This document shows positions 1 to 11,726 of a stretch of 12,221 nt of DNA, one piece after another. Source of the DNA: Erysipelotrichaceae bacterium (lineage in GTDB: Bacteria; Bacillota_I; Bacilli_A; Erysipelotrichales; Erysipelotrichaceae). The notes under the pieces were generated by a model. The model saw only the letters and a list, made by a program, of their open reading frames with translations. It ran no database searches and had not been told where the DNA came from. The position numbers and the translations under genes are program-made. The number at the start of each line of letters is the position of its first letter. The first letter of the stretch is position 1. The stretch is from positions 1 through 12,221 of the forward strand of contig DMBB01000279.1 in assembly GCA_003446295.1 (NCBI GenBank), in the 5' to 3' direction.

Positions 1-1558
1 GATAGAACAGTTTTGTACCGGTTCCGCCTGTATCGGGCAGAATAATACCGCTGTTGTTCTCAATTGAGCCGGATGCCTTCGGCTGATTGCTGCTGCGAAC
101 TGCATTCATATCAATGGTGTGATTCGTCATAGAAGCAGATTCACCGTTGAATGTGACATCATAAGTGATCAGCTGTTCTGTTTCGGTAGCAGATATCACG
201 ATTGTGACCGGTTCTCTCAGAAGATTGTACCCTGCCGGAGCCTTTGTTTCCAAAAGGTAATAGGTTCCCTGACCAAGACCTCTGATCACCTGTTCGAAAT
301 GACCGGATGCATCAGTTCTGAATGTATCTCCGCTGCTGCGTTCACTGACCCAGCTGACTGTCTGACTGTCAGGATTCCATAAATAGTATTCATTGCTCTC
401 ATCGACTGTTCTGTACAGTTTGAATTCCGCACCGGAAAGTGATTTGCTGTGGTCGGATCCGTCGATCTTCAATACATCCAGATCAATATCAGTAATGTAG
501 ACAGTCTTTGCCGGCGTTTCACCTGTACCATCGCTGTACGGGCTGTTTGAATACGTCAGTACCGCAGTATTGTTGTCATAGTTCGCTGTAAGTGCATTTT
601 GATTGACCGCTGCATCATAAGTGATCCTGATCGGGTCTCCTTTTGTGTAATTGCTCAGCACTGCAAACGGGATCGCAACAGTCATGGTCTGTCCGGACAC
701 TTCCGGTGCTGCGGTTATTTCTGCCCCGTTGATCATCATATGGAAATTGCCGGAGTATGTCAGACCTGCGCTTAATGTATCCGTCACTGTAAAAGTATAT
801 GTACTGTAACCGGTCAGATCAGGAACAATGGAGTCTAGTTCAAAGGAAACGACTGAACCTACTTTTGCTGATGCAGCTTTTCCCTGGCTGTCTAGAATAG
901 CTCCGGAAATTACAGCATCGCCTTCTTTGACGCCTGTGATCTTTTTGGACAATGTTGGAACGCCGGCTTTTGGCTGCACCTCGGCATCAGGATCCGCATT
1001 GCTTAAGATGACAGCAGAGATGATCTCGCTTTCACTGTTTTCAGGATCTGTTGGTTTTACGGTGCCGGTGATGATGTAGTAACCGGCTTCGGGTACAGTG
1101 ATGACTGCAGTTTCACCTTGTGCTGCCGCAGATCCTGCCCCAGTTCCAGAGATATATGGTTTCAGTGCATCTGCTAATGAACGAATATCAGAAGCAGAAA
1201 GCGTATTTGTTTCGTTATCCATTTTTGCAGGTTTCACGGTAACATTCTTGACATCTGTTTCTGATGCAATGTCGCCAAAATCAAAATATTCATCAAGGAC
1301 TGATTTGGCACCGGTGTAAAACGGATTTTCTGTATTGATCGTGTATGCGTAGTTTGTACCGCTGTACACGACATCAAACAGTTTATATGCAGTATAGGTC
1401 TTTCCGGCAATGGATATTGCGGGGTTGTCGTTTGTGACGGTAATGGTGTACGTTTCAGCCGGCTGCTGATCTTCCTCCTCTGCCGAAGCGGCTGTTTGCA
1501 TACCCGTAAGGATCAATGCGGATAATGCCAGCGATAGATGACGTTTCAAATGTTTCAT
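1..1558 (-). CDS. LPxTG major pilin-like surface protein (SpaA/D2 isopeptide type), 3' end cut by window edge
   Basis: Probable shaft subunit of a sortase-assembled pilus. The start at 1558 has a strong ribosome site (AAAGGAAG, 1564-1571, five bases away). 519 codons lie in the window with no stop. Residues 1-26 are a Sec signal peptide ending AASA. An N-terminal pilin domain carries the motif TYTAYKLFD (Lys59), where such domains place an isopeptide lysine. Residues 194-197 are VQPK, at the position of the VYPK pilin motif whose Lys (here Lys197) is joined by class C sortases; the Tyr is replaced by Gln. About 205-345 is a fimbrial D2-type domain (VTDTLSAGLTYSG). About 358-460 is a SpaA/Cna-B domain with Lys364 and an E-box YYLLETKAPAGY (Glu437). 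LPDTG is at 507-511, followed by the start of a hydrophobic stretch; the rest of the anchor lies outside the window. It is divergent from the sortase gene, its likely assembly enzyme. Polymerisation is inferred. Confidence 0.93.
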   Translation of the reverse strand, partial: MKHLKRHLSLALSALILTGMQTAASAEEEDQQPAETYTITVTNDNPAISIAGKTYTAYKLFDVVYSGTNYAYTINTENPFYTGAKSVLDEYFDFGDIASETDVKNVTVKPAKMDNETNTLSASDIRSLADALKPYISGTGAGSAAAQGETAVITVPEAGYYIITGTVKPTDPENSESEIISAVILSNADPDAEVQPKAGVPTLSKKITGVKEGDAVISGAILDSQGKAASAKVGSVVSFELDSIVPDLTGYSTYTFTVTDTLSAGLTYSGNFHMMINGAEITAAPEVSGQTMTVAIPFAVLSNYTKGDPIRITYDAAVNQNALTANYDNNTAVLTYSNSPYSDGTGETPAKTVYITDIDLDVLKIDGSDHSKSLSGAEFKLYRTVDESNEYYLWNPDSQTVSWVSERSSGDTFRTDASGHFEQVIRGLGQGTYYLLETKAPAGYNLLREPVTIVISATETEQLITYDVTFNGESASMTNHTIDMNAVRSSNQPKASGSIENNSGIILPDTGGTGTKLFY

Positions 1559-1865: not shown

Positions 1866-2828
1866 ATGAAAAAAATCAGAAAAGAAACAGGGATAAAAAC
1901 TGAATCTGTACAAAATGGGGAACGGCAGGAAAACTGGTTTCGAAAGAACTGGTCAAATATCGTGATCATGCTTGCTTTCTTTGTCGGTCTGGGACTTCTG
2001 CTGTATCCGAGTGTTTCGGATTACTGGAATTCATTCCATCAGTCAAGGGCAATCATGTCATATACGAGCGATGTAGCCAAACTGGACACTAGTGAGTATG
2101 ACAGGATCATTGCATCTGCCCAGGAATATAACCGCAATATCAGTGATAACGGCATCGATTGGATACTGACGGATGAAGACAAGGTCAACTATGAAAATGA
2201 ACTGAATTTCGCGGCAGGCGGCAATATGGGATATATCCAGATCGATAAGATCAACGTTAAACTGTCGATTTATCACGGAACAAGTGAAGCAGTTCTGCAG
2301 ACAAGCGTAGGTCATCTGGAAGGAACCAGTCTGCCGGTCGGCACAGCCAGTTTCGATCACAAAACAGGTGAGGTTACCGATCCAGCAGAAGGGGTACACA
2401 TTGCGCTGAGCGGACACAGAGGATTGCCGCGCGCAAAACTGTTTTCCGATCTGGACCGTCTGACAGAGGGAGATCGGTTCGTTATTGTGATCCTGAATGA
2501 AACATATACATATGAAGTTGACCAGATCAGGATCGTGGAACCGACTGATTTGAGCGATCTGGCGATTGAACCGGGCAAGGACTACTGTACCTTGATTACC
2601 TGTACACCATATGGAATCAATACACACCGACTGCTTGTCCGAGGTCATCGTGTAGAGAATGCGGGCGGAGATCTGCAGGTCACTCCTGATGCAGTGCAGT
2701 ATGAACCGTATATCATAGCGCCGTTTGTCGCAATACCGGTCATTCTGCTACTGATCATCATATTGTTTATGATCAGTGCACAGCCGAAAATCAACATAGA
2801 CGATATTAAAAAGAAATTGAATTTGTAG
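1866..2828 (+). CDS. Class C (pilin-polymerising) sortase
   Basis: A transpeptidase that cleaves LPxTG-type signals and joins pilin subunits through a pilin-motif lysine, acting at the outer membrane face. The 320-residue protein has an N-terminal membrane helix (about 31-49) and a second near the C-terminus (about 283-304), the two-helix layout of class C enzymes. The catalytic triad is visible: His184 in LSGHRGLP, Cys246 in TLITCTPYG and Arg255 in NTHRLLVRGHR. The stretch MGYIQIDKINVKLSIYHGTS is also class-typical. The lid region (about 90-110) lacks a DPF or DPW motif; the nearest match is Asp98-Trp99. The ATG at 1866 is the only good start after an in-frame stop at 1836, but has no clear ribosome site. 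It heads a three-gene operon and diverges from the LPDTG pilin, its likely substrate. Confidence 0.94.
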   Translation: MKKIRKETGIKTESVQNGERQENWFRKNWSNIVIMLAFFVGLGLLLYPSVSDYWNSFHQSRAIMSYTSDVAKLDTSEYDRIIASAQEYNRNISDNGIDWILTDEDKVNYENELNFAAGGNMGYIQIDKINVKLSIYHGTSEAVLQTSVGHLEGTSLPVGTASFDHKTGEVTDPAEGVHIALSGHRGLPRAKLFSDLDRLTEGDRFVIVILNETYTYEVDQIRIVEPTDLSDLAIEPGKDYCTLITCTPYGINTHRLLVRGHRVENAGGDLQVTPDAVQYEPYIIAPFVAIPVILLLIIILFMISAQPKINIDDIKKKLNL

Positions 2829-2839
2829 GGAGTCTGAAT

Positions 2840-3160
2840 ATGGATACAAAGGATCTGAAGAAACTGAAGAGGGGAGATCTGCTTGAAATACTGGTGGATA
2901 TCTCTGAAGAAAATGACAGGCTGAGGCAGGAAAATGCCGAATTAAAAGAGAAACTTGAAGAAAAAAGGCTGATCATGAATAAGGCAGGTTCGATCGCCGA
3001 AGCATCACTGCGCCTCAACAGGGTATTTGAGGCAGTGCAGGATGCAGCGGATCAGTATCTTACCAGTATTCGCGATATCAACATCATGAAGCGGGAAGAA
3101 TTAAGAAAACTTCAGGAAATGACGGGGAAGAAAGATGACGCAGAGGCAGAGGAAGAGTAA
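2840..3160 (+). CDS. Small cytosolic coiled-coil protein of unknown function in the sortase operon
   Basis: No function recognised. The 106-residue product has no signal peptide or membrane segment and is very charged. Residues about 20-48 form a heptad-rich coiled coil (EENDRLRQENAELKEKLEEK). A helical stretch follows (about 50-80, AGSIAEASLRLNRVFEAVQDAADQ pattern), and the tail is acidic (last residues AEAEEE). The ribosome site AGGGAG (2827-2832) overlaps the sortase stop codon, 7 bases from the ATG. The gene sits 11 bases after the sortase gene and overlaps the next gene by 26 bases, so it is almost surely co-transcribed and translationally coupled. Small coiled-coil proteins of this look occur beside sortase and signal peptidase genes in Firmicutes, to my recollection. 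A scaffolding or regulatory role for the membrane enzymes is a guess. Confidence 0.85.
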   Translation: MDTKDLKKLKRGDLLEILVDISEENDRLRQENAELKEKLEEKRLIMNKAGSIAEASLRLNRVFEAVQDAADQYLTSIRDINIMKREELRKLQEMTGKKDDAEAEEE

Positions 3161-3737
3161 GGTCAATGTCCGGCCGACAACGGAAGAACTGACCAGGGAA
3201 CTCAAACGTGTCAGGTATAATGAACGTTATGGGCGGACGATCAGAAGTACGATCTATATTCTGATCACTGTAGCTGCCGCATCTATTCTTGTGGCGACAC
3301 TTGTTTTCCCGATCTTCCGCATTTACGGAAGCTCCATGTCACCGACTCTTGAAGAAGGAGATATTGTTGCCTCACTGCGTACGGCTAAATTTGAGCATGG
3401 CGACCTGGTGGCGTTCTACTATAACAACAGACTTCTGGTGAAAAGAGTGATCGCTTCCGGCGGAGAATGGGTCGACATTGATCAGGATGGCAACGTATAT
3501 GTCAACAATCAGCTGCTGGATGAGCCGTATGTGGCTGATAAGACATTTGATTTTGATACACAGATGAACATCGAGATCCCTTATCAGGTTCCGGATGGAA
3601 GGATCTTTGTCATGGGTGACCACAGAAGCACCTCGGTCGATTCGCGTATGAAGGAGATCGGATGCATTTCAGATGATCTGATCGCAGGAAAACTGATCCT
3701 GCGCATCTGGCCTCTTGGACAATTCAAATTTAACTGA
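3135..3737 (+). CDS. Type I signal peptidase, Ser/Lys class (S26 family)
   Basis: Membrane serine protease that removes Sec signal peptides at the outer face of the membrane. The 200-residue protein has a basic N-terminus (1-38), one membrane helix (about 40-60), then family box B, GSSMSPTLEEGD, with nucleophile Ser67. Box D, LLVKRVIA, carries the general base Lys103, and box E is MGDHRSTSVDSR. This is the bacterial Ser/Lys type, unlike the Ser/His enzyme encoded at 8093-8617. The ATG at 3135 lies inside the end of the coiled-coil gene, with GGGGA (3124-3128) upstream as ribosome site. Being in the sortase operon suggests a role in maturing the local pilins, as for dedicated signal peptidases in other Gram-positive pilus islands; a general housekeeping role is also possible. 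Confidence 0.94.
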   Translation: MTQRQRKSKVNVRPTTEELTRELKRVRYNERYGRTIRSTIYILITVAAASILVATLVFPIFRIYGSSMSPTLEEGDIVASLRTAKFEHGDLVAFYYNNRLLVKRVIASGGEWVDIDQDGNVYVNNQLLDEPYVADKTFDFDTQMNIEIPYQVPDGRIFVMGDHRSTSVDSRMKEIGCISDDLIAGKLILRIWPLGQFKFN

Positions 3738-3762
3738 CGGGCAGAGATGTCCGTCATTTTTT
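3735..3762 (+). terminator. Intrinsic terminator of the sortase operon
   Basis: TGACGGGC (3735-3742) pairs with GTCCGTCA (3749-3756), giving an 8-base stem with one G-U pair around the loop AGAGAT, followed by six T (3757-3762). The stem begins at the signal peptidase stop codon itself. It separates the sortase operon from the surface-fibre operon. Confidence 0.85.
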
Positions 3763-4030: not shown

Positions 4031-5119
4031 ATGGGGAAGAAATATAAAGGCATGATGAAAGGTATTCTGGCAGCCGCTTTTGTTGTGCCTGCTATGATTC
4101 ATGGGACTGTGTACACCCAGGCGTCAGTGCGCGTTGATGCAGAATGTTTTCTGACTGCAAATGCCGAGCCGGAGTTTCAATCTGACTTGACGGATTACAA
4201 GGTCGGCAGCGGTGAAAATGTTACGGACAAGATCGTTGTTGACTATTACAAAGTTGCAGGGATCGTCAAAGACGAACATTATGATACATTCACATTTGAA
4301 TTGTCAGAAGGCTACAGCCTGGAGAACTATGACATCGCAACTTATGAAGGACTGTCGGAACTTGAGAGTGAAGACTGGAATGATATCGGCGAACAGCTGT
4401 TCAGTGAAGCGCTCAATAACAAACCCCTGCTGACAGAGGATTTCGGTACAAAAACAGATAAGCTCGAGACTGGTCTGTATCTGATGGTCGTGCGCAACCT
4501 GGCAGAGACCGAAGCTGAAGACTATGTGGATGGCAATAGTACGGCAGCTTATACAACGCAGTATGTGTATACATTTACACCGCAGCTGGTTTCACTGCCA
4601 AGCACCAATGAAAATACCAGAGAAGGAATGAAAACATCCGATGGTACATGGATCTATGATCTGACTGTCACATTAAAGGCTGAGCGTGAAAGACGTCTGA
4701 GCAGTCTCCGCATCGAAAAACTGCTGGAATCATATGAAAACTCATCACCTGCTACATTTGTGTTCGACATTGTCGGCAAGATCGATGATGAAACTGTATA
4801 CACAAATGTAACATCACTGACATTCAGTGCTGCCGGACTCGAAACAGCTGTTGTTGACAAGATTCCTGTTGGTACGCATGTAGTCGTTAAGGAGATCTAT
4901 TCAGGAGTTTCCTATGAACTGACTACTGATGCTGAAGCAGAGACAGTTATTCTGATTCCTGTTGATGAAGAAACAGAAATGACGGCAGAAAATACTGCAA
5001 CGATACGGTTCGGCAATCAATACAATGGCAAGATCCCGCATGGCCATGGAATCAAAAACATCTTTACGTACGGTGATGATGGATGGGGATTAGAACAAGA
5101 GGACGGTAAAGCAGAATGA
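4031..5119 (+). CDS. Secreted pilin-like protein with Cna-B-like domain, no wall anchor
   Basis: No exact family recognised. The 362-residue product has a signal peptide (about 1-31, hydrophobic 10-24). An N-terminal domain (about 45-190) has pilin-like phrases such as VVDYYKVAG and FELSEGYSL. A second, Ig-like domain (about 222-334) resembles the Cna-B/DUF7601 group. It starts SLRIEKLLE (Lys230), has an E-box-like VVVKEIYSG (Glu288) and ends TATIRFGNQYNG (Asn329, Asn332). An internal isopeptide between Lys230 and one of these Asn residues is possible but inferred. The C-terminus is hydrophilic (GWGLEQEDGKAE) with no LPxTG or membrane helix; SLPST at 188-192 is internal and not a sorting signal. 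Start supported by AAGGAG (4020-4025). First gene of the operon; it overlaps the next by 4 bases (ATGA). It may be a soluble partner or tip of the fibre. Confidence 0.85.
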   Translation: MGKKYKGMMKGILAAAFVVPAMIHGTVYTQASVRVDAECFLTANAEPEFQSDLTDYKVGSGENVTDKIVVDYYKVAGIVKDEHYDTFTFELSEGYSLENYDIATYEGLSELESEDWNDIGEQLFSEALNNKPLLTEDFGTKTDKLETGLYLMVVRNLAETEAEDYVDGNSTAAYTTQYVYTFTPQLVSLPSTNENTREGMKTSDGTWIYDLTVTLKAERERRLSSLRIEKLLESYENSSPATFVFDIVGKIDDETVYTNVTSLTFSAAGLETAVVDKIPVGTHVVVKEIYSGVSYELTTDAEAETVILIPVDEETEMTAENTATIRFGNQYNGKIPHGHGIKNIFTYGDDGWGLEQEDGKAE

Positions 5120-5619
5120 AAAAAAGAAATCTGATTCTTGCTGTCGCTGCTGTTTGCCTGCTGCTATGCGTATCAGTGAAAAACGCAATGGCATATTTCA
5201 GCGTCAGTGTCCGTTCGGAAGGACATACAGAAGTTCAATTCAGTGAAAAAACGGAAATTATCGAAACATTTGACAACTGGACAAAGCATCTGACAGTCAC
5301 CAATGAAGGTGATGATAATGGACAGGTATATGTCCGTGCCAGAGGTTTTGCACCGGAAGGCATGACATTGGATTATTCCGGTGATAACTGGTCAGACGGC
5401 GGAGATGGTTACTGGTATTACAACGGTTACATCGGTAATGGTGAATCCACAACTGTTCTGAATGTAGAGATCAAGAATATTCCTGCTGAGGTAAAAGCAG
5501 GGGACAACTTCAATGTAGTAGTGATCTATGAAACGACACCTGTTCAGTATGATTCAGATGGCAAGATCATTTCTGCAATTGAAGCAGACTGGAATACGGA
5601 GGTGCAGACCAATGATTAA
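5116..5619 (+). CDS. TasA/CalY-like fibre protein with SipW-type signal peptide (short)
   Basis: Probable secreted fibre subunit of the TasA/camelysin type, processed by a SipW-like peptidase. The 167-residue product has a signal segment (about 1-27) ending NAMAYFSV, the Ala-Tyr-Phe-Ser pattern seen at SipW-dependent cleavage sites. The mature part (about 28-160) is a compact all-beta-like domain with phrases found in this group: HLTVTNEGDDNGQVYVRARG, then a Gly/Asp/Trp/Tyr-rich segment (87-104) and LNVEIKNIPAEVKAGD. There is no sorting signal and no C-terminal helix. It starts inside the stop of the previous gene (ATGA overlap) with only a weak, distant GAGG upstream, so translation is probably coupled. 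It overlaps the next gene by 8 bases. The metalloprotease activity once proposed for camelysins is not implied. Confidence 0.82.
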   Translation: MKKRNLILAVAAVCLLLCVSVKNAMAYFSVSVRSEGHTEVQFSEKTEIIETFDNWTKHLTVTNEGDDNGQVYVRARGFAPEGMTLDYSGDNWSDGGDGYWYYNGYIGNGESTTVLNVEIKNIPAEVKAGDNFNVVVIYETTPVQYDSDGKIISAIEADWNTEVQTND

Positions 5620-6376
5620 ACGTTTGAAATCACTTCCGAAAAGTGTAACTGCAATGCTGGTGACTGCTCTTGTACTGCTGGTCTTCAGTACAGTAGGAGG
5701 TGCAAGAGCTGCCCTGAAGTATTTCTCTCAAACATATACGGGACAGTTCCAGACATATCATATCGGCACACGACTGAATGAAAACGGGAATTTATCCGCT
5801 TCTAAAAAATGGTCTTCCGGCAGCTGGACGACTGAAGGCGATTCAAAAATCCTGAGCGGCATCACGTCATTTGAATTCGGAAAAACATATCCTGAAGAGC
5901 TGACGATTGCCAATACCGGTGAGATTAAAGAATATGTCCGTGCAACGATCTATAAATACTGGGTCAACGCAGACGGTGAGAAGCAGGTCGATCTGGATCC
6001 TTCCTATATTCAGCTGGAATTGAACACTGCTGACGGATGGATCAAAGATACTGCATATTCCGAAACTGAAGATCATCCGGAGCGTATTGTCATGTATTAC
6101 ACGGAACCGCTTGATGTAGGCGGAGAAACTCCGGCTTTCATGAAGTCAATCAAAGTGGATCCTGCGATCAAGGCTGTTGGAACACAGACTACCGAAACCA
6201 AAACAGTAGATGGAAAGACAGTCACAACAATTACTACAACATATACATATGATGGTAAATTCTTTGCACTGGAAGTTCAGGCAGATGCCGTTCAGACACA
6301 TAATGCAGAGGATGCGATCAAGAGCGCATGGGGCAGGGATGTAACGATCAGCGGAACGACCCTGAGCCTTAAGTGA
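5612..6376 (+). CDS. TasA/CalY-like fibre protein with SipW-type signal peptide (long)
   Basis: Likely main fibre subunit, exported and cut by the SipW-like peptidase encoded at the end of the operon. The start at 5612 is preferred over an upstream in-frame ATG (5528) because it has GGAGGT (5598-5603) eight bases away and begins a proper signal segment. The product is then 254 residues. Signal segment about 1-34 (hydrophobic 14-28, GGARA), then ALKYFSQTY, a SipW-type mature start. The body has ELTIANTGEIKEYVRATIYKYW (98-117 region), a Thr-rich stretch (191-212), and the C-terminal phrase EVQADAVQTHNAEDAIKSAW (221-240), a hallmark-like end of TasA/CalY proteins. No wall-sorting signal. The last gene base pairs run close to the next gene (14-base gap). 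Confidence 0.85.
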   Translation: MIKRLKSLPKSVTAMLVTALVLLVFSTVGGARAALKYFSQTYTGQFQTYHIGTRLNENGNLSASKKWSSGSWTTEGDSKILSGITSFEFGKTYPEELTIANTGEIKEYVRATIYKYWVNADGEKQVDLDPSYIQLELNTADGWIKDTAYSETEDHPERIVMYYTEPLDVGGETPAFMKSIKVDPAIKAVGTQTTETKTVDGKTVTTITTTYTYDGKFFALEVQADAVQTHNAEDAIKSAWGRDVTISGTTLSLK

Positions 6377-6390
6377 GGAGGATGATCGGG

Positions 6391-7143
6391 ATGAAAAAAA
6401 CATTGATCCGTTTAGCGGCGTCTCTTTCCGTTCTCAGCATGTGCTTTGTGACAGTCTCAGCAGAAGTATATCCGCAAGTGGAAACAGACTGGAAAGTAAC
6501 GTTTACCGGTAAGGAAATGGTTTCCAACTTTACGACTGAGGACATTCAGGATAATGTAAAGGGAATGGAACCCGGTGATGAACTCAACATCAACATCGCA
6601 CTTGAAAACACCAGCAAAGGTGAAGCTGATTGGTGGATGGAGAACAAAGTTGTCAAGAGTCTGGAAGACAACAGTGCCGGTAAGGGCGGTGCTTATACCT
6701 ATGAACTGGTCTATACCAACAGCAAAGGTGAGAATGTTACGATCTTCTCAAGTGACACAGTCGGTGGTGAAGATACAGCAGCCGGTGTCGGTCTGCATGA
6801 GCCGGGCGAAGTCTTGAAGGACTACTTCTATCTGGAAACCATGGGAGCAAATACATCTTCATCACTGTCTCTTCATATCGTTCTGGATGGTGAAACACAG
6901 ACAAACAGCTATCAGGACGCACTTGGGGAACTGACAATGAACTTTGCGGTAGAAGTTCCCAAAACAACGAAAAAGCCAAATGATCCTGAGGTGATCGTCG
7001 ATAAGAAACAGACGATCGTATATCTGCCCAACACAGGTGATCGCTCCAATCTTCCTCTGTATGCAGGAGCGTTTGGCTGCAGTGTTCTGCTGTTCATTAT
7101 CGCGGCAGTTATTCTGAAGCGGTCATCCCGGAGCAGCGAGTAA
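6391..7143 (+). CDS. LPxTG-anchored TasA-like surface protein
   Basis: Probable wall-attached member of the fibre system. The start at 6391 is chosen because AGGAGG (6376-6381) lies nine bases upstream; the in-frame GTG (6373) and ATG (6382) sit on or against that site. The product is 250 residues. Signal peptide 1-24 ends VSA before EVYPQ. The body (25-190) has TasA-like strands, for example ELNINIALENTSKGEADWWM, and predicted all-beta character. A linker rich in Lys, Pro and Thr (190-208) precedes LPNTG (212-216), a hydrophobic helix (about 223-242) and the tail KRSSRSSE, a complete sorting signal. It is the only gene of this operon with one, so it may link the TasA-like fibre to peptidoglycan through a sortase. 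Which sortase acts is not shown by the sequence. Confidence 0.88.
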   Translation: MKKTLIRLAASLSVLSMCFVTVSAEVYPQVETDWKVTFTGKEMVSNFTTEDIQDNVKGMEPGDELNINIALENTSKGEADWWMENKVVKSLEDNSAGKGGAYTYELVYTNSKGENVTIFSSDTVGGEDTAAGVGLHEPGEVLKDYFYLETMGANTSSSLSLHIVLDGETQTNSYQDALGELTMNFAVEVPKTTKKPNDPEVIVDKKQTIVYLPNTGDRSNLPLYAGAFGCSVLLFIIAAVILKRSSRSSE

Positions 7144-7157
7144 GGAGCGGTATTGAT

Positions 7158-8096
7158 ATGAAACGATTAAGGATAGTATTGAGCCTTTTAGCAGTTGTTC
7201 TTCTGATGATCGGAAGCAATGCTGTAGCAAGGGCAGCCAGCTATAAATACAGAGTTACGATCGATCCGGGCCTGCATGGAACATACAGCGGAACAAAGGA
7301 CATGGAGATCCCTTATGGTTCAACATGGAATCCTTCTGATTATGCAGACAATATTACAGTTACGGATGACAACTATTATTTCAAAGGATTCCATATCAGC
7401 GGTGTGGAAGGAGTTGTCGGAACAACAGACATCACAGAAGATACCGTATTTGTTGCATCATACGGCATGAAGGGTGAGACTGTTGCATATACCGTTAACT
7501 ATGTGGACGAATCCGGAAAAACGCTGCTTCCTTCAGCGACATATCAGGGGAATGTCGGTGATCAGCCGGTCGTCGCTTTCCGTTATGTTGACGGATATCT
7601 GCCGCAGGCATATAACCTGACAAAGAAACTGAGTGATCAGGCATCTGAAAATGTCTTTACATTCAAATACAAGAAGGTCAAGCCGAAGGTCGTCGGAACC
7701 ACAGGAAGCGGCGGAGTAACATATGTTGTTGAAGACGGCGGTGTTGTCTATATCCAGCTCCCTGCCGAAAACACCGGTAAAAAAGGTTATGCGGCATCAG
7801 CTTCCAACACGACATTCAATAACACCAATGCTGAGACTGCTGAGAATCAGAAAGAGACAGTGCCTGAGACTGAATCAGATCTGCCAGTGACGATTATTGA
7901 TCTGGATCAGGAACCTGATAATGAGATGGCAGTATCCGAAAATACATCCGGTTCTACAGAAGAACTGATCAGCTCAGACGATGTTTCCAACAGCAAAGGT
8001 ATGAGTACAGGAGTTAAAATCGGCATTGGAGCAGGTTGTGCCGGAATCCTGGTTCTGCTGATCACAGTCATGGCAAAAGCAAGATCTGCCGAATGA
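7158..8096 (+). CDS. Membrane-anchored surface protein with InlB-like and MucBP-like domains
   Basis: Likely adhesin or structural partner on the cell surface. The 312-residue product has a signal peptide (1-27, ending ARA). A beta-grasp-like repeat (about 29-103) resembles InlB B-repeats: YGSTWNPS, YYFKGFHI, DITEDTVFVASY. A MucBP-like domain (about 109-172) runs from YTVNYVDESGKTLLP to ENVFTFKYKK. A low-complexity Ser/Thr/Glu/Asn stalk follows (about 210-282), and a C-terminal helix (about 286-305) ends with a short basic tail. There is no LPxTG, so it is expected to stay in the membrane, unlike the LPNTG protein before it. Ribosome site AAGGAG (7142-7147) overlaps the previous stop. It overlaps the signal peptidase gene by 4 bases. 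MucBP domains bind mucin in some proteins; binding here is not shown. Confidence 0.85.
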   Translation: MKRLRIVLSLLAVVLLMIGSNAVARAASYKYRVTIDPGLHGTYSGTKDMEIPYGSTWNPSDYADNITVTDDNYYFKGFHISGVEGVVGTTDITEDTVFVASYGMKGETVAYTVNYVDESGKTLLPSATYQGNVGDQPVVAFRYVDGYLPQAYNLTKKLSDQASENVFTFKYKKVKPKVVGTTGSGGVTYVVEDGGVVYIQLPAENTGKKGYAASASNTTFNNTNAETAENQKETVPETESDLPVTIIDLDQEPDNEMAVSENTSGSTEELISSDDVSNSKGMSTGVKIGIGAGCAGILVLLITVMAKARSAE

Positions 8097-8617
8097 GCCG
8101 AACTGATTACAATAACACTTCAAAGGGCGGGAGTATTCTCCCTGCCCTTTGCAGTATCATCGGAACAGGCATTCTGCTGTGTGTCATTATACTTCTGATA
8201 CCGATGTCCACGCCCAGACTGTTTGGGTACGATATGTACAATGTTGTAAGCGGAAGTATGGAACCTGCGATCCCTACCGGCAGTATGATCTTTGTAAAAC
8301 CTGCCGAAGCTAAAAATATAGCAGAAGGTGAAGTGATCGCTTTCTACAGTGGGGGAAGTGTTGTAGTACACCGTGTGACGAACAACAACACAGTAGAAGG
8401 AAAGATATCCACCAAAGGCGATGCAAACGCGGATGAGGATTTCAACAGTGTCCTGTATAAGGAAGTGATCGGTGTTGTGAAATACCATGTCCCTTATCTG
8501 GGGGATGTTTCAAGCAATCTGACATCAGCGTTCGGCAAAGTATATCTGCTGGCGCTGATTATACTCGGACTTTTGTTCCACCTGCTTGCTGTACGCCTGC
8601 GTGCACTATTGATTTGA
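8093..8617 (+). CDS. sipW: SipW-like signal peptidase I (ER-type, Ser/His)
   Basis: Membrane peptidase expected to cut the signal segments of the TasA-like proteins in the same operon. The start at 8093 gives an ATGA overlap with the previous stop and a sensible N-terminus; an in-frame ATG at 8036 would add 19 residues inside the upstream gene and looks spurious. The 174-residue protein has a helix at about 15-37 and the nucleophile box VVSGSMEPAIPTGS (Ser55). The general base is His93 in VVVHRVTN, replacing the Lys of bacterial-type enzymes. A conserved segment, ISTKGDANADED, carries Asp110, and a second helix lies at about 150-168. Ser/His chemistry is that of SipW and ER/archaeal signal peptidases. 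SipW processes TasA in Bacillus subtilis; the same pairing here is strong contextual evidence. Symbol given by analogy. Confidence 0.92.
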   Translation: MSRTDYNNTSKGGSILPALCSIIGTGILLCVIILLIPMSTPRLFGYDMYNVVSGSMEPAIPTGSMIFVKPAEAKNIAEGEVIAFYSGGSVVVHRVTNNNTVEGKISTKGDANADEDFNSVLYKEVIGVVKYHVPYLGDVSSNLTSAFGKVYLLALIILGLLFHLLAVRLRALLI

Positions 8618-8654
8618 AGATTCGGTCGAGAGAATTCGGTCGGATCTTTTGTTT
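8617..8654 (+). terminator. Intrinsic terminator of the surface-fibre operon
   Basis: Bases 8617-8629 pair with 8636-8648 over 13 positions (three G-U pairs) around the loop GAGAAT. A T-rich tail, TTGTTTT, follows. It starts at the last base of the signal peptidase stop codon and ends the six-gene operon, setting the downstream TIR gene apart as its own unit. Confidence 0.85.
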
Positions 8655-8765
8655 TATACGGCCGGATATTTACTATACAGCAGCTGATCAGACACAGCTG
8701 TCAGCTATCGTATATATGAACAATGATATGGATGCTAAAATGAATTCATGAAACAGGTGAATGAT
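8655..8765 (+). promoter_or_regulatory. Short region before the TIR gene, with inverted repeat
   Basis: No gene is present. AGCTGA (8682-8687) and TCAGCT (8701-8706) form an inverted repeat with a 13-base spacer, and CAGCTG occurs twice (8681-8686 and 8695-8700). TATATATG (8711-8718) could hold a -10, but no good -35 lies at the right distance. A ribosome site AGGTGA (8755-8760) precedes the ATG at 8766. A promoter must lie here if the terminator upstream works, but I cannot place it firmly. Confidence 0.35.
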
Positions 8766-11726
8766 ATGACAGAGAGCAGAAAAAGATATAAAGCATTTAT
8801 CAGCTACAGACATAAGCCGAATGACATGAAAACAGCCAAAGCTGTGCATCAGCTGATCGAACATTACCGCATTCCGGCAGAGATCGCTGAGAAGCACGGA
8901 ATTGCCGACCGCAGATTCGGAAGGGTATTCCGTGACCAGGACGAACTGCCTCTTTCTGATGATCTGTCTGCCAATATTACACAGGCACTGGATGATTCGG
9001 AATTCCTGATCGTGATCTGCACGCCTGATCTTCCGCGGTCCATCTGGTGCAAAAGGGAGATCATATATTTTCTTGAACACCATCCGAGAAGCCATGTGCT
9101 GGCAGTGCTGGCTGACGGAACGCCGGAAACATCGTTCCCTGATTCATTGACACATGTTTATGATCCGGTCACAAAAGAAACCGTTGAACTGGTTGAACCG
9201 CTGGCCGCAAACATCTGCGGTGCTGCAGGACCGGATATGAAACTCCTGAACAAGGAGATCTTCAGACTTTACGCGGCAATGATTCCCTGCGCATTTGATG
9301 ATCTTTGGCAGCGTGAGCGCCGCTATCAGACCAGAAGGCGGATCATTGCAGGAAGTCTGGCAGGCTGCCTGCTTCTGGGTTATACAGGAACAGTTGTCTA
9401 TAAGAATCATCAGATCCAGACAGCATACAATGAGCTGGAGATCGAACACGCGAATACGCAGAAAAAAGAATCGGAGGCACTTGCGGCACTTTCAGGGAAT
9501 GCATTGTCATCCGGGGACCGCACATCTGCATTGAAGTATGCATTTGAAGCGCTGCCTGCTCAGTCAGACCGTCCGTATGTTCCTGCTGCAGAGAAAGCAA
9601 TATCTGAAGCACTGTATCTTTACCGCACACCGAATCTGCGTTTTGACCGTGCGTTTGACTATGATGTGATTCCGAACAGTATCGACACAGACGGTGAGCG
9701 GATCTTCTTTGCCGGAAATGACAAAAGAGTCTATTGTATTGACGGCAGCGGCAAACAGCTGTGGAAAACAGAACCGGATCAGCTGTCATTCCGGTATATC
9801 CATGTTATGAAAGACGCTGGCAGGATCATTGCCGGCGGTACGGGCTCAGTTCTTCTGCTGAACAGCGAAACAGGCAGTACAGACTATCAGATCAATGGCA
9901 CATATCTGGGGATGTCAGATGATGAGTCTCTTGTCTGTGCGGTACAAAACAAGAACCTGATCTTCATTGATGCTTTGACAGGAAAACAGGCCTTTTCCGC
10001 AGATCTGTCGGAGCTCACAGATTTAACGATCGCCAATAGTTATGACTGTACTTTTTCGAATGACAACAGGATCTGTCATGTCAGTTTCCGTGCATATGAC
10101 AGCAGCACCTCCAGAAACTACGAGGCGATCACGTTCAAAGCGGATCTGTCAGATCAGACAGTATCCATCTTCAGAACGATACCATATAACGTTGATGATC
10201 ATGAAATAACCGATACAAAGACTGTTTTCCGGGCTGACGGCAGTATTTTCCTGTTTGCCATTGCATACAGTGATGATCGTGTTCTCACAATGACAGAAGC
10301 ATATAACGCTGATGGAACGGTCAGGTACAGCCGTATTGACGATCCTGATATTCTTCCTTCAGTTCCATCAGCCGGCGCGATATTGGAAGACGGCTTTTAC
10401 CTGACAGACTCGAATTACTTGACTGCAGTATGGAAAAAATACGCACTGCTGTTTGATATGAGGACAGGGGAACTCGTTGATTACGATCTGATGGAATCAG
10501 ACTGTCTTGATGTACGGGCTTACGTAAAGGACAGATGGCATTTCCTGTTTGAAAACGGAACAGTCAAGATCGTATATCCTGAAGCATTTGCCAACGGCAT
10601 CCTTGAATTCCACGATGTATTCTCAGCAGGCATTGAACTGGCAGGAGGCTGGCTGCTGGACGGAAAAGGATATGAGATGTCTGTGATTCCGATGAGTGAT
10701 ATGTCAAAGATGGAATTCCTGAACGTGATCGGTGATCATCCTGAAAAGAAAGTACCCTGGCTGATTGATCAGAAATCCAGTTTTCCTTCTTCCAGCAATC
10801 TGGCAGTCTCCGAAGATGGTCAGTGGTATCTGCAGTATGTAGAATCATATGATAAAGAAGGATACTTCCAGCTTCATCTGCTGGACAGCACACATCATGA
10901 AGTTCTGAAAAATATATATCCTGAGACACTCAATATAAACCCGGTATTCGGCGATCATAAACTGTATCTGTTCGGAGACCGTGAATACATCTGGGACTTT
11001 GAGACAAACGAGCTCAGTGCGGCAGACCCGGGGATCCCGTATGACTATGATTACATCAGAAGCAATCGGATATGCGGAAATATGGCAGTTTTTGAGCTCG
11101 CCGAAAATTCAGATGATCCGGGAATGGGGATCAGGGGCGGCTATGCCGTGCAGAATGTCAGAACACAGGAATGGACGCTGGTCCAGTATGGGGCCGGAGA
11201 AGAAACAGAACGCTATCTGCCTTCCTATTACGGGGGAGATATCTACACTGCTGATGAAAATCATTTCTACATGCTGGATACCGATCATATCCTGCATATC
11301 TGCCCGCTGAAGGGTGAAGCAGAAGAGAGAACGGTACCGTTTGAATCAGATGATGTCAAGAGGGCCGTATGTGATGGGCAGCTGATCCTGATCGAAGATC
11401 ATTCCGGAACACTTACATTGATCGATATCGCAACAGGAGAGACGCTGTATCAGAAGAACCTTGATACGGGTTCAACCAGCATCCGTCTTTGGGTAACTGA
11501 CGAGAGGATCATCATTTCTGAATCAGGGGCATACGGAAACGGATATATTCTTGACAGAAACAGCGGGGAAGAACTGTGCAGTGTTCCGAAACTTGTGGAA
11601 TATGACAGGGCAGAGCGCAGGCTGATCTGCTATGATCCCGGCACAAAATCATATCTGCTTTACAGGATGCTGAATACGGCAGAAGCTGCTGAACGGGCAT
11701 CATTGATCATTTCCGATGATGAATGA
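8766..11726 (+). CDS. TIR domain - single membrane helix - beta-propeller-like protein
   Basis: A large (986-residue) receptor-like protein, function unknown. Residues about 8-140 form a TIR domain: YKAFISYRHKP, FRDQDELP in the BB-loop area, DDSEFLIVICTPD, and SIWCKRE, whose Glu98 sits where NAD-cleaving TIR enzymes have their catalytic Glu. One membrane helix (about 193-212) follows a very basic stretch (RERRYQTRRR, 183-192), which predicts TIR in the cytoplasm and the rest outside. Next come a helical linker (about 221-285, EALAALSGNALSSGDRTSALKYAFEAL), as found before WD40 or PQQ-like repeats in signalling proteins, and about 690 residues of propeller-like strands, for example RVYCIDGSGKQLWKTE and LIFIDALTGKQAFSADL. 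Start: ATG 8766 has AGGTGA five bases away; ATG 8748 in the same frame lacks a site but would add six residues. It lies between terminator and MATE gene, as a single gene. Confidence 0.9.
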   Translation: MTESRKRYKAFISYRHKPNDMKTAKAVHQLIEHYRIPAEIAEKHGIADRRFGRVFRDQDELPLSDDLSANITQALDDSEFLIVICTPDLPRSIWCKREIIYFLEHHPRSHVLAVLADGTPETSFPDSLTHVYDPVTKETVELVEPLAANICGAAGPDMKLLNKEIFRLYAAMIPCAFDDLWQRERRYQTRRRIIAGSLAGCLLLGYTGTVVYKNHQIQTAYNELEIEHANTQKKESEALAALSGNALSSGDRTSALKYAFEALPAQSDRPYVPAAEKAISEALYLYRTPNLRFDRAFDYDVIPNSIDTDGERIFFAGNDKRVYCIDGSGKQLWKTEPDQLSFRYIHVMKDAGRIIAGGTGSVLLLNSETGSTDYQINGTYLGMSDDESLVCAVQNKNLIFIDALTGKQAFSADLSELTDLTIANSYDCTFSNDNRICHVSFRAYDSSTSRNYEAITFKADLSDQTVSIFRTIPYNVDDHEITDTKTVFRADGSIFLFAIAYSDDRVLTMTEAYNADGTVRYSRIDDPDILPSVPSAGAILEDGFYLTDSNYLTAVWKKYALLFDMRTGELVDYDLMESDCLDVRAYVKDRWHFLFENGTVKIVYPEAFANGILEFHDVFSAGIELAGGWLLDGKGYEMSVIPMSDMSKMEFLNVIGDHPEKKVPWLIDQKSSFPSSSNLAVSEDGQWYLQYVESYDKEGYFQLHLLDSTHHEVLKNIYPETLNINPVFGDHKLYLFGDREYIWDFETNELSAADPGIPYDYDYIRSNRICGNMAVFELAENSDDPGMGIRGGYAVQNVRTQEWTLVQYGAGEETERYLPSYYGGDIYTADENHFYMLDTDHILHICPLKGEAEERTVPFESDDVKRAVCDGQLILIEDHSGTLTLIDIATGETLYQKNLDTGSTSIRLWVTDERIIISESGAYGNGYILDRNSGEELCSVPKLVEYDRAERRLICYDPGTKSYLLYRMLNTAEAAERASLIISDDE

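Follow-up and report, generated by a model that had tools for sequence, protein, structure and literature searches.

A conserved gut bacterial gene module brings together SipW-associated BsaA-like subunits, a sorting-signal protein and a class C sortase

The window analysed here, a stretch of 12,221 nucleotides from an Erysipelotrichaceae bacterium (GenBank assembly GCA_003446295.1, contig DMBB01000279.1), carries at positions 4031–8617 six forward-strand genes, named A, B, C, D, E and SipW (F). The initial annotation described them as six coupled genes forming a hybrid TasA/SipW fibre and sortase-anchor operon, and all six open reading frames were verified at these coordinates. A/B and E/SipW overlap by ATGA, B/C overlap by 8 nucleotides, and the intergenic gaps C–D and D–E measure 14 nucleotides each. 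Two terminator-like sites flank the set, and the whole window reads pilin, class C sortase, coiled-coil-like protein, signal peptidase I, terminator-like site, A to F, terminator-like site, TIR/beta-propeller protein and MATE. The core of the hybrid reading stands: one conserved set joins SipW-associated BsaA-like subunits, a sorting-signal protein and a class C sortase. Its assignments of a sortase partner to D, of a TasA identity to D and of a role to A are revised below.

The six-gene set is a conserved module of many gut species, not a local oddity. Loci were collected with a profile of 35 D homologues run against one genome per species; D relatives lie in 215 of 258 candidate stretches, and the best 80 of the 215 plus the window make up the 81 loci counted here, with genes placed by six-frame profile mapping. 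An extra sample comprises 15 loci, and motif statistics for D cover 95 D proteins; L097, L106 and L107 repeat L002, L079 and L069 and are excluded from the counts. Because the E profile also matches the Cna-B pilins upstream, E labels ahead of the sortase are read as pilins. A-B-C precedes D in all 76 loci having at least 3 kilobases (kb) to the left of D, and in every one of the 81 loci E comes next after D. Where at least 2 kb lies to the right of D, 68 of 74 loci encode a SipW-type peptidase, positioned after E except in L009 and L060, where it sits between C and D. Among loci with more than 1.7 kb of upstream sequence, L020 alone lacks both B and C while having D and E. The initial annotation had allowed that no relative might share this gene order; it recurs instead in dozens of loci, well beyond chance. 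Among sampled genomes of the order, 36 of 294 contain a D relative, and a profile search for distant D proteins among 7992 candidates returned at least 53 matches, the only source named among those listed being Erysipelotrichaceae bacterium HCN-30851. Acetatifactor muris DSM 23669 (L009) is among the named strains with the locus, and the closest relatives of the window are Solobacterium sp. metagenome-assembled genomes (D 81–82% identical), two of three titled ruminant gut. A plasmid search gave no match to C, and a search of viral contigs no relative of D.

A (4031–5119, forward strand) encodes a secreted pilin-like protein of 362 amino acids, with a signal peptide by inspection and no sorting signal. 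It matches DUF5979, a Cna-B-like domain, above the cut-off, as do 45 of 45 A rows scanned. Ahead of this domain's Lys230-Glu288-Asn329 set lies a pilin-motif-like lysine, Lys216 (codon 4676–4678), and a conserved C-terminal tail begins at 5042. The pilin motif of SpaCBA-type pili is given as WxxxVxVYPKN (PMC5536039). An aligned motif lysine is present in 76 of 76 short A proteins, and a tryptophan occupies the motif's Trp column in 74; the Trp-to-Lys spacing in the window A is nine residues, as in the pilin motif, with insertions in some rows, and the motif is unclear in the short A of L104. The Lys, Glu and Asn residues of an isopeptide-type Cna-B domain are kept in A proteins, L100 having Asp for Asn, and most A proteins end in a G-x-G-[IV]-x-N-x-F-like tail. 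A C-terminal membrane segment occurs in 1 of 77 A proteins (giant forms included), 0 of 77 B, 0 of 78 C and 81 of 81 D; the lone A with such a segment, that of L037, carries an added tail. A is therefore not classed as a standard basal pilin, and by its sequence the short form resembles a basal pilin lacking its anchor.

Just ahead of A, 74 of the 76 short-A loci encode a class C sortase. This tally includes six (L001–L003, L007, L016 and the window) where coiled-coil and signal peptidase genes intervene; in the remaining two short-A loci the sortase is farther upstream on the same contig (L047) or on another contig (L023). L111 stands outside these counts, as does a second A-like match in L021 (2379 amino acids), which falls outside the module. 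The 53 loci with enough upstream DNA include none with a small (150–420 amino acids) LPxTG protein upstream; 34 have one large (738–1704 amino acids) and one medium (463–742 amino acids) LPxTG protein, 15 have one and 4 have none. Many loci (L006, L008, L009, L025–L027, L036, L037 and others) have two class C sortase genes in tandem before A.

Ten loci carry a giant A of 1492–4001 amino acids in place of the short form. A profile of the A N-terminal domain, built from the 76 short A proteins and recovering all of them, matches none of the ten giants even at E 10, and the longer giant frames give no match at E up to 0.01. The frame is complete in seven giants (L048, L067, L098 (L117), L102 (L121), L103 (L119), L108 (L118) and L112 (L122)); those of L069, L077 and L079 reach the contig end. 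What giant and short forms share is the Cna-B domain and the tail, the Cna-B set being aligned in L048, L067, L069, L077, L079, L098, L102, L108 and L103, with L112 outside the alignment. In the L098 giant, Trp and Lys do fill the motif columns, in a stretch read as another Cna-B repeat. L103 counts as the tenth giant-A locus, and its D, in one frame with E, carries no separate label. No class C sortase was found on the contigs of the ten giants, either by a whole-genome search with PF04203 or by profile in the flanks, and the giant-A genomes G008, G010 and G111 returned no sortase whatsoever. G168 has both arrangements: a 4001-residue A without (L119) and a 410-residue A with (L111) a class C sortase just upstream. 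Relatedness among the loci limits the statistics, and a Fisher p of 1.7e-9 is for that reason given no weight. In G116 (L117:2-16830), two tandem giant A-like genes (2540+ and 3026 amino acids) stand ahead of B. The initial annotation had A as a pilin-like protein without an anchor; the missing sorting signal bears this out, while the lysine motif and the giant variants suggest, in place of a plain pilin role, that A joins a pilus to a fibre.

B (5116–5619, forward strand) encodes a small BsaA-like subunit of 167 amino acids, and C (5612–6376, forward strand) the main BsaA-like subunit, 254 amino acids from the ATG at 5612; both have SipW-type signals by inspection (AMA-YFS in B, ARA-ALKYFS in C). 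Against TIGR04090, the BsaA family model, B scores 19 and C 35 bits, under the cut-off of 60, and at E <= 0.01 the model picks up 28 of 39 rows for B and 39 of 46 for C. Their profiles are related to one another (hhalign probability 90, E 1.9e-6), and by these comparisons B and C are distant BsaA-family proteins. The peptidase (8093–8617, forward strand; 174 amino acids from the ATG at 8093) matches TIGR02228 with 86.7 bits, above the cut-off of 51.85, and the SipW model NF046067 with E 2.2e-25 and 89 bits, below the equivalog cut-off of 190; its active site has Ser (SGSMEP) and His (HRV), the His replacing Lys.

The predicted model of C has a predicted local distance difference test (pLDDT) score of 87. 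Its best fold matches, like those of D, are generic beta-sandwiches; in a check for the TasA fold, 8aur appears at Foldseek rank 6 (E 0.016, TM 0.36), and TasA is absent from the best 50 VIA-align matches listed, so that for C, too, the TasA fold is compatible without standing out. A profile search of the PDB with A, B, C and D produced no credible match; for B, most rows were antibody chains, with E of 0.03 or above. Mature residues 1–14 of C fall below pLDDT 50 yet contain near-invariant residues, and this disordered but conserved N-terminal arm hints at strand exchange between subunits. TasA is described as giving its N-terminal arm to the next subunit (PMC9674648, PMC10151520).

D (6391–7143, forward strand), the proposed fibre root, encodes a 250-residue protein predicted to fold as a beta-sandwich (pLDDT 76, predicted template-modelling score 0.73); by inspection its signal peptide is of the ordinary kind, and a sorting signal lies at its C-terminus. 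After its LPNTG codons (7024–7038, forward strand) come Asp, a membrane segment and a basic tail, so that the full signal claimed for it is present in the window. LPNTG itself is a local variant that 5 of 95 D proteins carry; the common motif is [V/P/I]-[K/R]-T-[G/S]-D. T[GS], which the search required, stands within 22 residues of a membrane segment in 95 of 95. Among family models, D matches only that of the LPXTG anchor, plus weakly EF0750 below its cut-off, with no relevant NCBIfam match among 47 rows. Its description as TasA-like is not borne out by sequence: profile comparison gave no evidence that D is a TasA/BsaA homologue (hhalign probability 0.4 for C–D and 3 for B–D), and its predicted fold is compatible with TasA without singling TasA out. 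TapA is absent from the matches of the fold and PDB searches with D, the only comparison made with it. E (7158–8096, forward strand; 312 amino acids) has a C-terminal membrane segment and no LPXTG motif. The membrane part of its labelling as a MucBP/InlB membrane protein stands; its InlJ/MucBP-like matches are weak, that to MucBP lying below the cut-off. In L103 (6855-8555), L109 and L110 (genomes G168, G297 and G243), D reads into E in one frame, and the resulting proteins retain D's PxTG motif and membrane segment together with E's signal-like segment.

The sorting signal of D is better matched to a class B than to a class C sortase. The initial annotation set the LPNTG protein beside the class C sortase, which does adjoin the set; the better fit is with class B genes. 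Such a gene follows D on its own strand, no more than 5 kb away, in 23 of 81 loci, or 20 of 69 when only loci with at least 3.5 kb downstream are counted; the extra sample adds 3 of 15 loci. Class B genes of L023 (upstream) and L037 (opposite strand) are left out of this tally. Nine of the 26 class B genes were put to the TIGR03064 model and all nine pass its cut-off. Three Solobacterium genomes, those of L001, L003 and L004, each have one class B sortase beside class C, all three passing the cut-off; the L001 genome also contains a partial second copy, L082. D might instead be a mere membrane-anchored assembly factor whose T[GS]D motif no sortase cuts. The motif is loose enough for this (TS for TG in 15 of 95 D proteins, LPxTG in 6), four D-bearing genomes yielded no sortase, and D runs into E in the three genomes above. 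Even so, we judge it improbable, since V, P or I stands at −2 in 92 of 95 and Asp at +2 in 87, with the motif 6–9 residues ahead of the membrane segment in 83; the neighbouring class B genes and the retention of motif and membrane segment in the D–E fusions argue the same way.

A different use of the class B enzyme would be to join the threonine of D to the lysine of A, making D a member of the pilin chain and not a wall root. D does carry a sorting signal and A a lysine, and the class B enzyme Spy0129 of Streptococcus pyogenes reportedly takes part in pilus assembly. Nevertheless T[GS] is kept in D where A lacks the pilin domain (L048, L067, L069, L077, L079, L098, L102 and L108), and L102 and L112, likewise without that domain in A, have a class B gene downstream; we regard such a linkage as very unlikely. 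A division of labour in which class C would serve a pilus ending on A and class B would serve D fits the distribution of motifs and sortases.

From these elements we propose a composite appendage, at slightly less than an even chance of being right: a class C pilus that ends covalently on A, A seated on a SipW-processed fibre of B and C, and D rooting the fibre in the wall. The class C sortase would link a tip adhesin and an LPxTG shaft pilin encoded upstream, of which the window shows the shaft pilin only. A would be the last pilin of the chain, the last shaft subunit being passed to its pilin-motif-like lysine; A itself, with no sorting signal and no threonine to hand on, would terminate the covalent chain. 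The conserved C-terminal part of A would dock on a non-covalent BsaA/TasA-like fibre, on B or C, in which B may act as adaptor and C as main subunit, their signal peptides cut by the operon's SipW. D would close the fibre at the cell, where a class B sortase would fix it to the wall, and E may be a membrane-bound factor for assembly or anchoring. In loci lacking a neighbouring class C pilus, A takes the giant form, which has no pilin domain, and there the same fibre would bear a giant adhesin instead. Taken as a whole, this would be a novel architecture, in which a covalent class C pilus stands on a non-covalent SipW-dependent fibre rooted by a class B sortase, a giant adhesin fused to the shared docking domain can take the place of the pilus, and the order A-B-C-D mirrors tip to root; we put that broader proposal forward tentatively, as appreciably short of an even bet.

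Several observations weigh against the composite appendage. The N-terminal domain of A has weak homology to shaft pilins (probability 47, E 1.9e-4 without the signal peptide), and 58 of 81 loci have no class B gene downstream of D. A tree built from C and D puts the number of short/giant switches at two to four, and the sortase follows the switch in a mean of 1.8 of 2 independent pairs and never runs against it, too few for significance. A terminator-like site separates the sortase unit from A in the window, and the distant Erysipelotrichales loci L091–L095 keep C-D-E with a SipW/S26-type peptidase gene and have neither a class C nor a class B sortase in the retrieved stretch, so a pilus is no prerequisite for the fibre genes. 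(L091–L093 also hold several C-like copies, and L094 weak A- and B-like matches downstream.) These last two findings would suit a simpler arrangement of two neighbours, a BsaA-type biofilm fibre of B, C, the root D and SipW, co-regulated with a class C pilus, with A an ancillary pilin that never touches the fibre; the Clostridium perfringens fibre, for its part, is described as independent of sortase (PMC7395162). We hold this arrangement to be unlikely, though a real contender: A comes first in the fibre operon, with an ATGA overlap with B in the window, it stays directly before B even when it lacks the pilin domain, and the part common to giant and short A is the Cna-B domain with the tail. 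It is this shared part that would dock on the fibre in the composite appendage.

The flanks of the module supply the pilus genes of the window. A SpaH/EbpB-type major pilin (2–1558, reverse strand), truncated at the window edge, matches GramPos_pilinBB (2.2e-17) and SpaA (1.7e-15), with TIGR04226 above and NF033902 below the cut-off; it has an LPDTG signal and a VQPK pilin motif and is transcribed divergently from the class C (pilin) sortase gene (1866–2828, forward strand; NF033745 E 1.7e-77, 260 bits against a cut-off of 160). On the forward strand follow a coiled-coil-like protein (2840–3160), identified by eye and with no family match over the cut-off, and a bacterial-type signal peptidase I (3135–3737; TIGR02227 E 2e-36, above the cut-off) with Ser and Lys present (GSSMSP, VKRV). 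The gene pair at 2840–3737, distinct from SipW, recurs beside L005, L012, L017, L042, L048 and L067, and its peptidase is possibly the pilus's own signal peptidase. An intrinsic-terminator-like hairpin of 9 pairs with a T-run (3735–3756, forward strand) marks the boundary between sortase unit and A, and another of 15 pairs (8616–8649, forward strand) lies downstream of the operon; the region holds 11 terminator-like sites, against a mean of 5.2 (standard deviation 2.3) in shuffles. Beyond the second hairpin, a 992-residue protein (8748–11726, forward strand) combines an N-terminal TIR domain (PF13676, PF08937 ThsB_TIR) with a beta-propeller part, and its gene adjoins the module in L001 and L003 too.

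Sortase pili and TasA/BsaA fibres are usually treated as separate filament routes, and TasA/CalY and BsaA are reported to be independent of the sortases tested (PMC13082335, PMC7395162). If true, a conserved locus that unites the two and draws on two classes of sortase would amount to a new building plan, and it gives a sharp, testable prediction on what holds the base of such pili; the module is common in gut and rumen Firmicutes and so bears on commensal attachment and biofilms. No published description of the cluster was found in the open-licence PMC literature, outside which subscription papers and preprints lie.

The closest described case is the sipW-bsaABCRSD cluster of C. perfringens, the source of the BsaA pellicle fibre, which shares SipW, BsaA-family secreted subunits, more secreted proteins and an adjoining sortase gene (PMC7395162). 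In that cluster sipW comes first, BsaA is without an LPXTG-like sequence and the neighbouring sortase has no effect on BsaA polymers (PMC7395162); the present locus differs in that A, D and E are part of it, as is a class C pilus. The tapA-sipW-tasA operon of Bacillus subtilis likewise has SipW-processed beta-sandwich subunits and an accessory protein proposed for anchoring, while the available sections describe no LPXTG-type protein, pilin or sortase for its fibre (PMC9674648, PMC10151520). TasA, CalY and CapP of Bacillus cereus offer a parallel in two co-assembling subunits and a wall-located helper, but that system is described as sortase-independent, and its CapP bears a DUF4047 motif (PMC13082335). 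With SpaCBA-type class C pili the locus shares a tip adhesin, an LPxTG shaft pilin and a class C sortase, and A shares with them a W-x8-K pilin-motif-like site and a Cna-B domain (PMC5536039). SpaCBA-type basal pilins are described there as carrying their own sorting signal and being wall-anchored by the housekeeping sortase (PMC5536039), whereas A has no sorting signal and all 53 loci with sufficient upstream sequence lack a small LPxTG protein that might serve as basal pilin. Set beside these systems, the component parts are of known kinds; their combination appears to be new.

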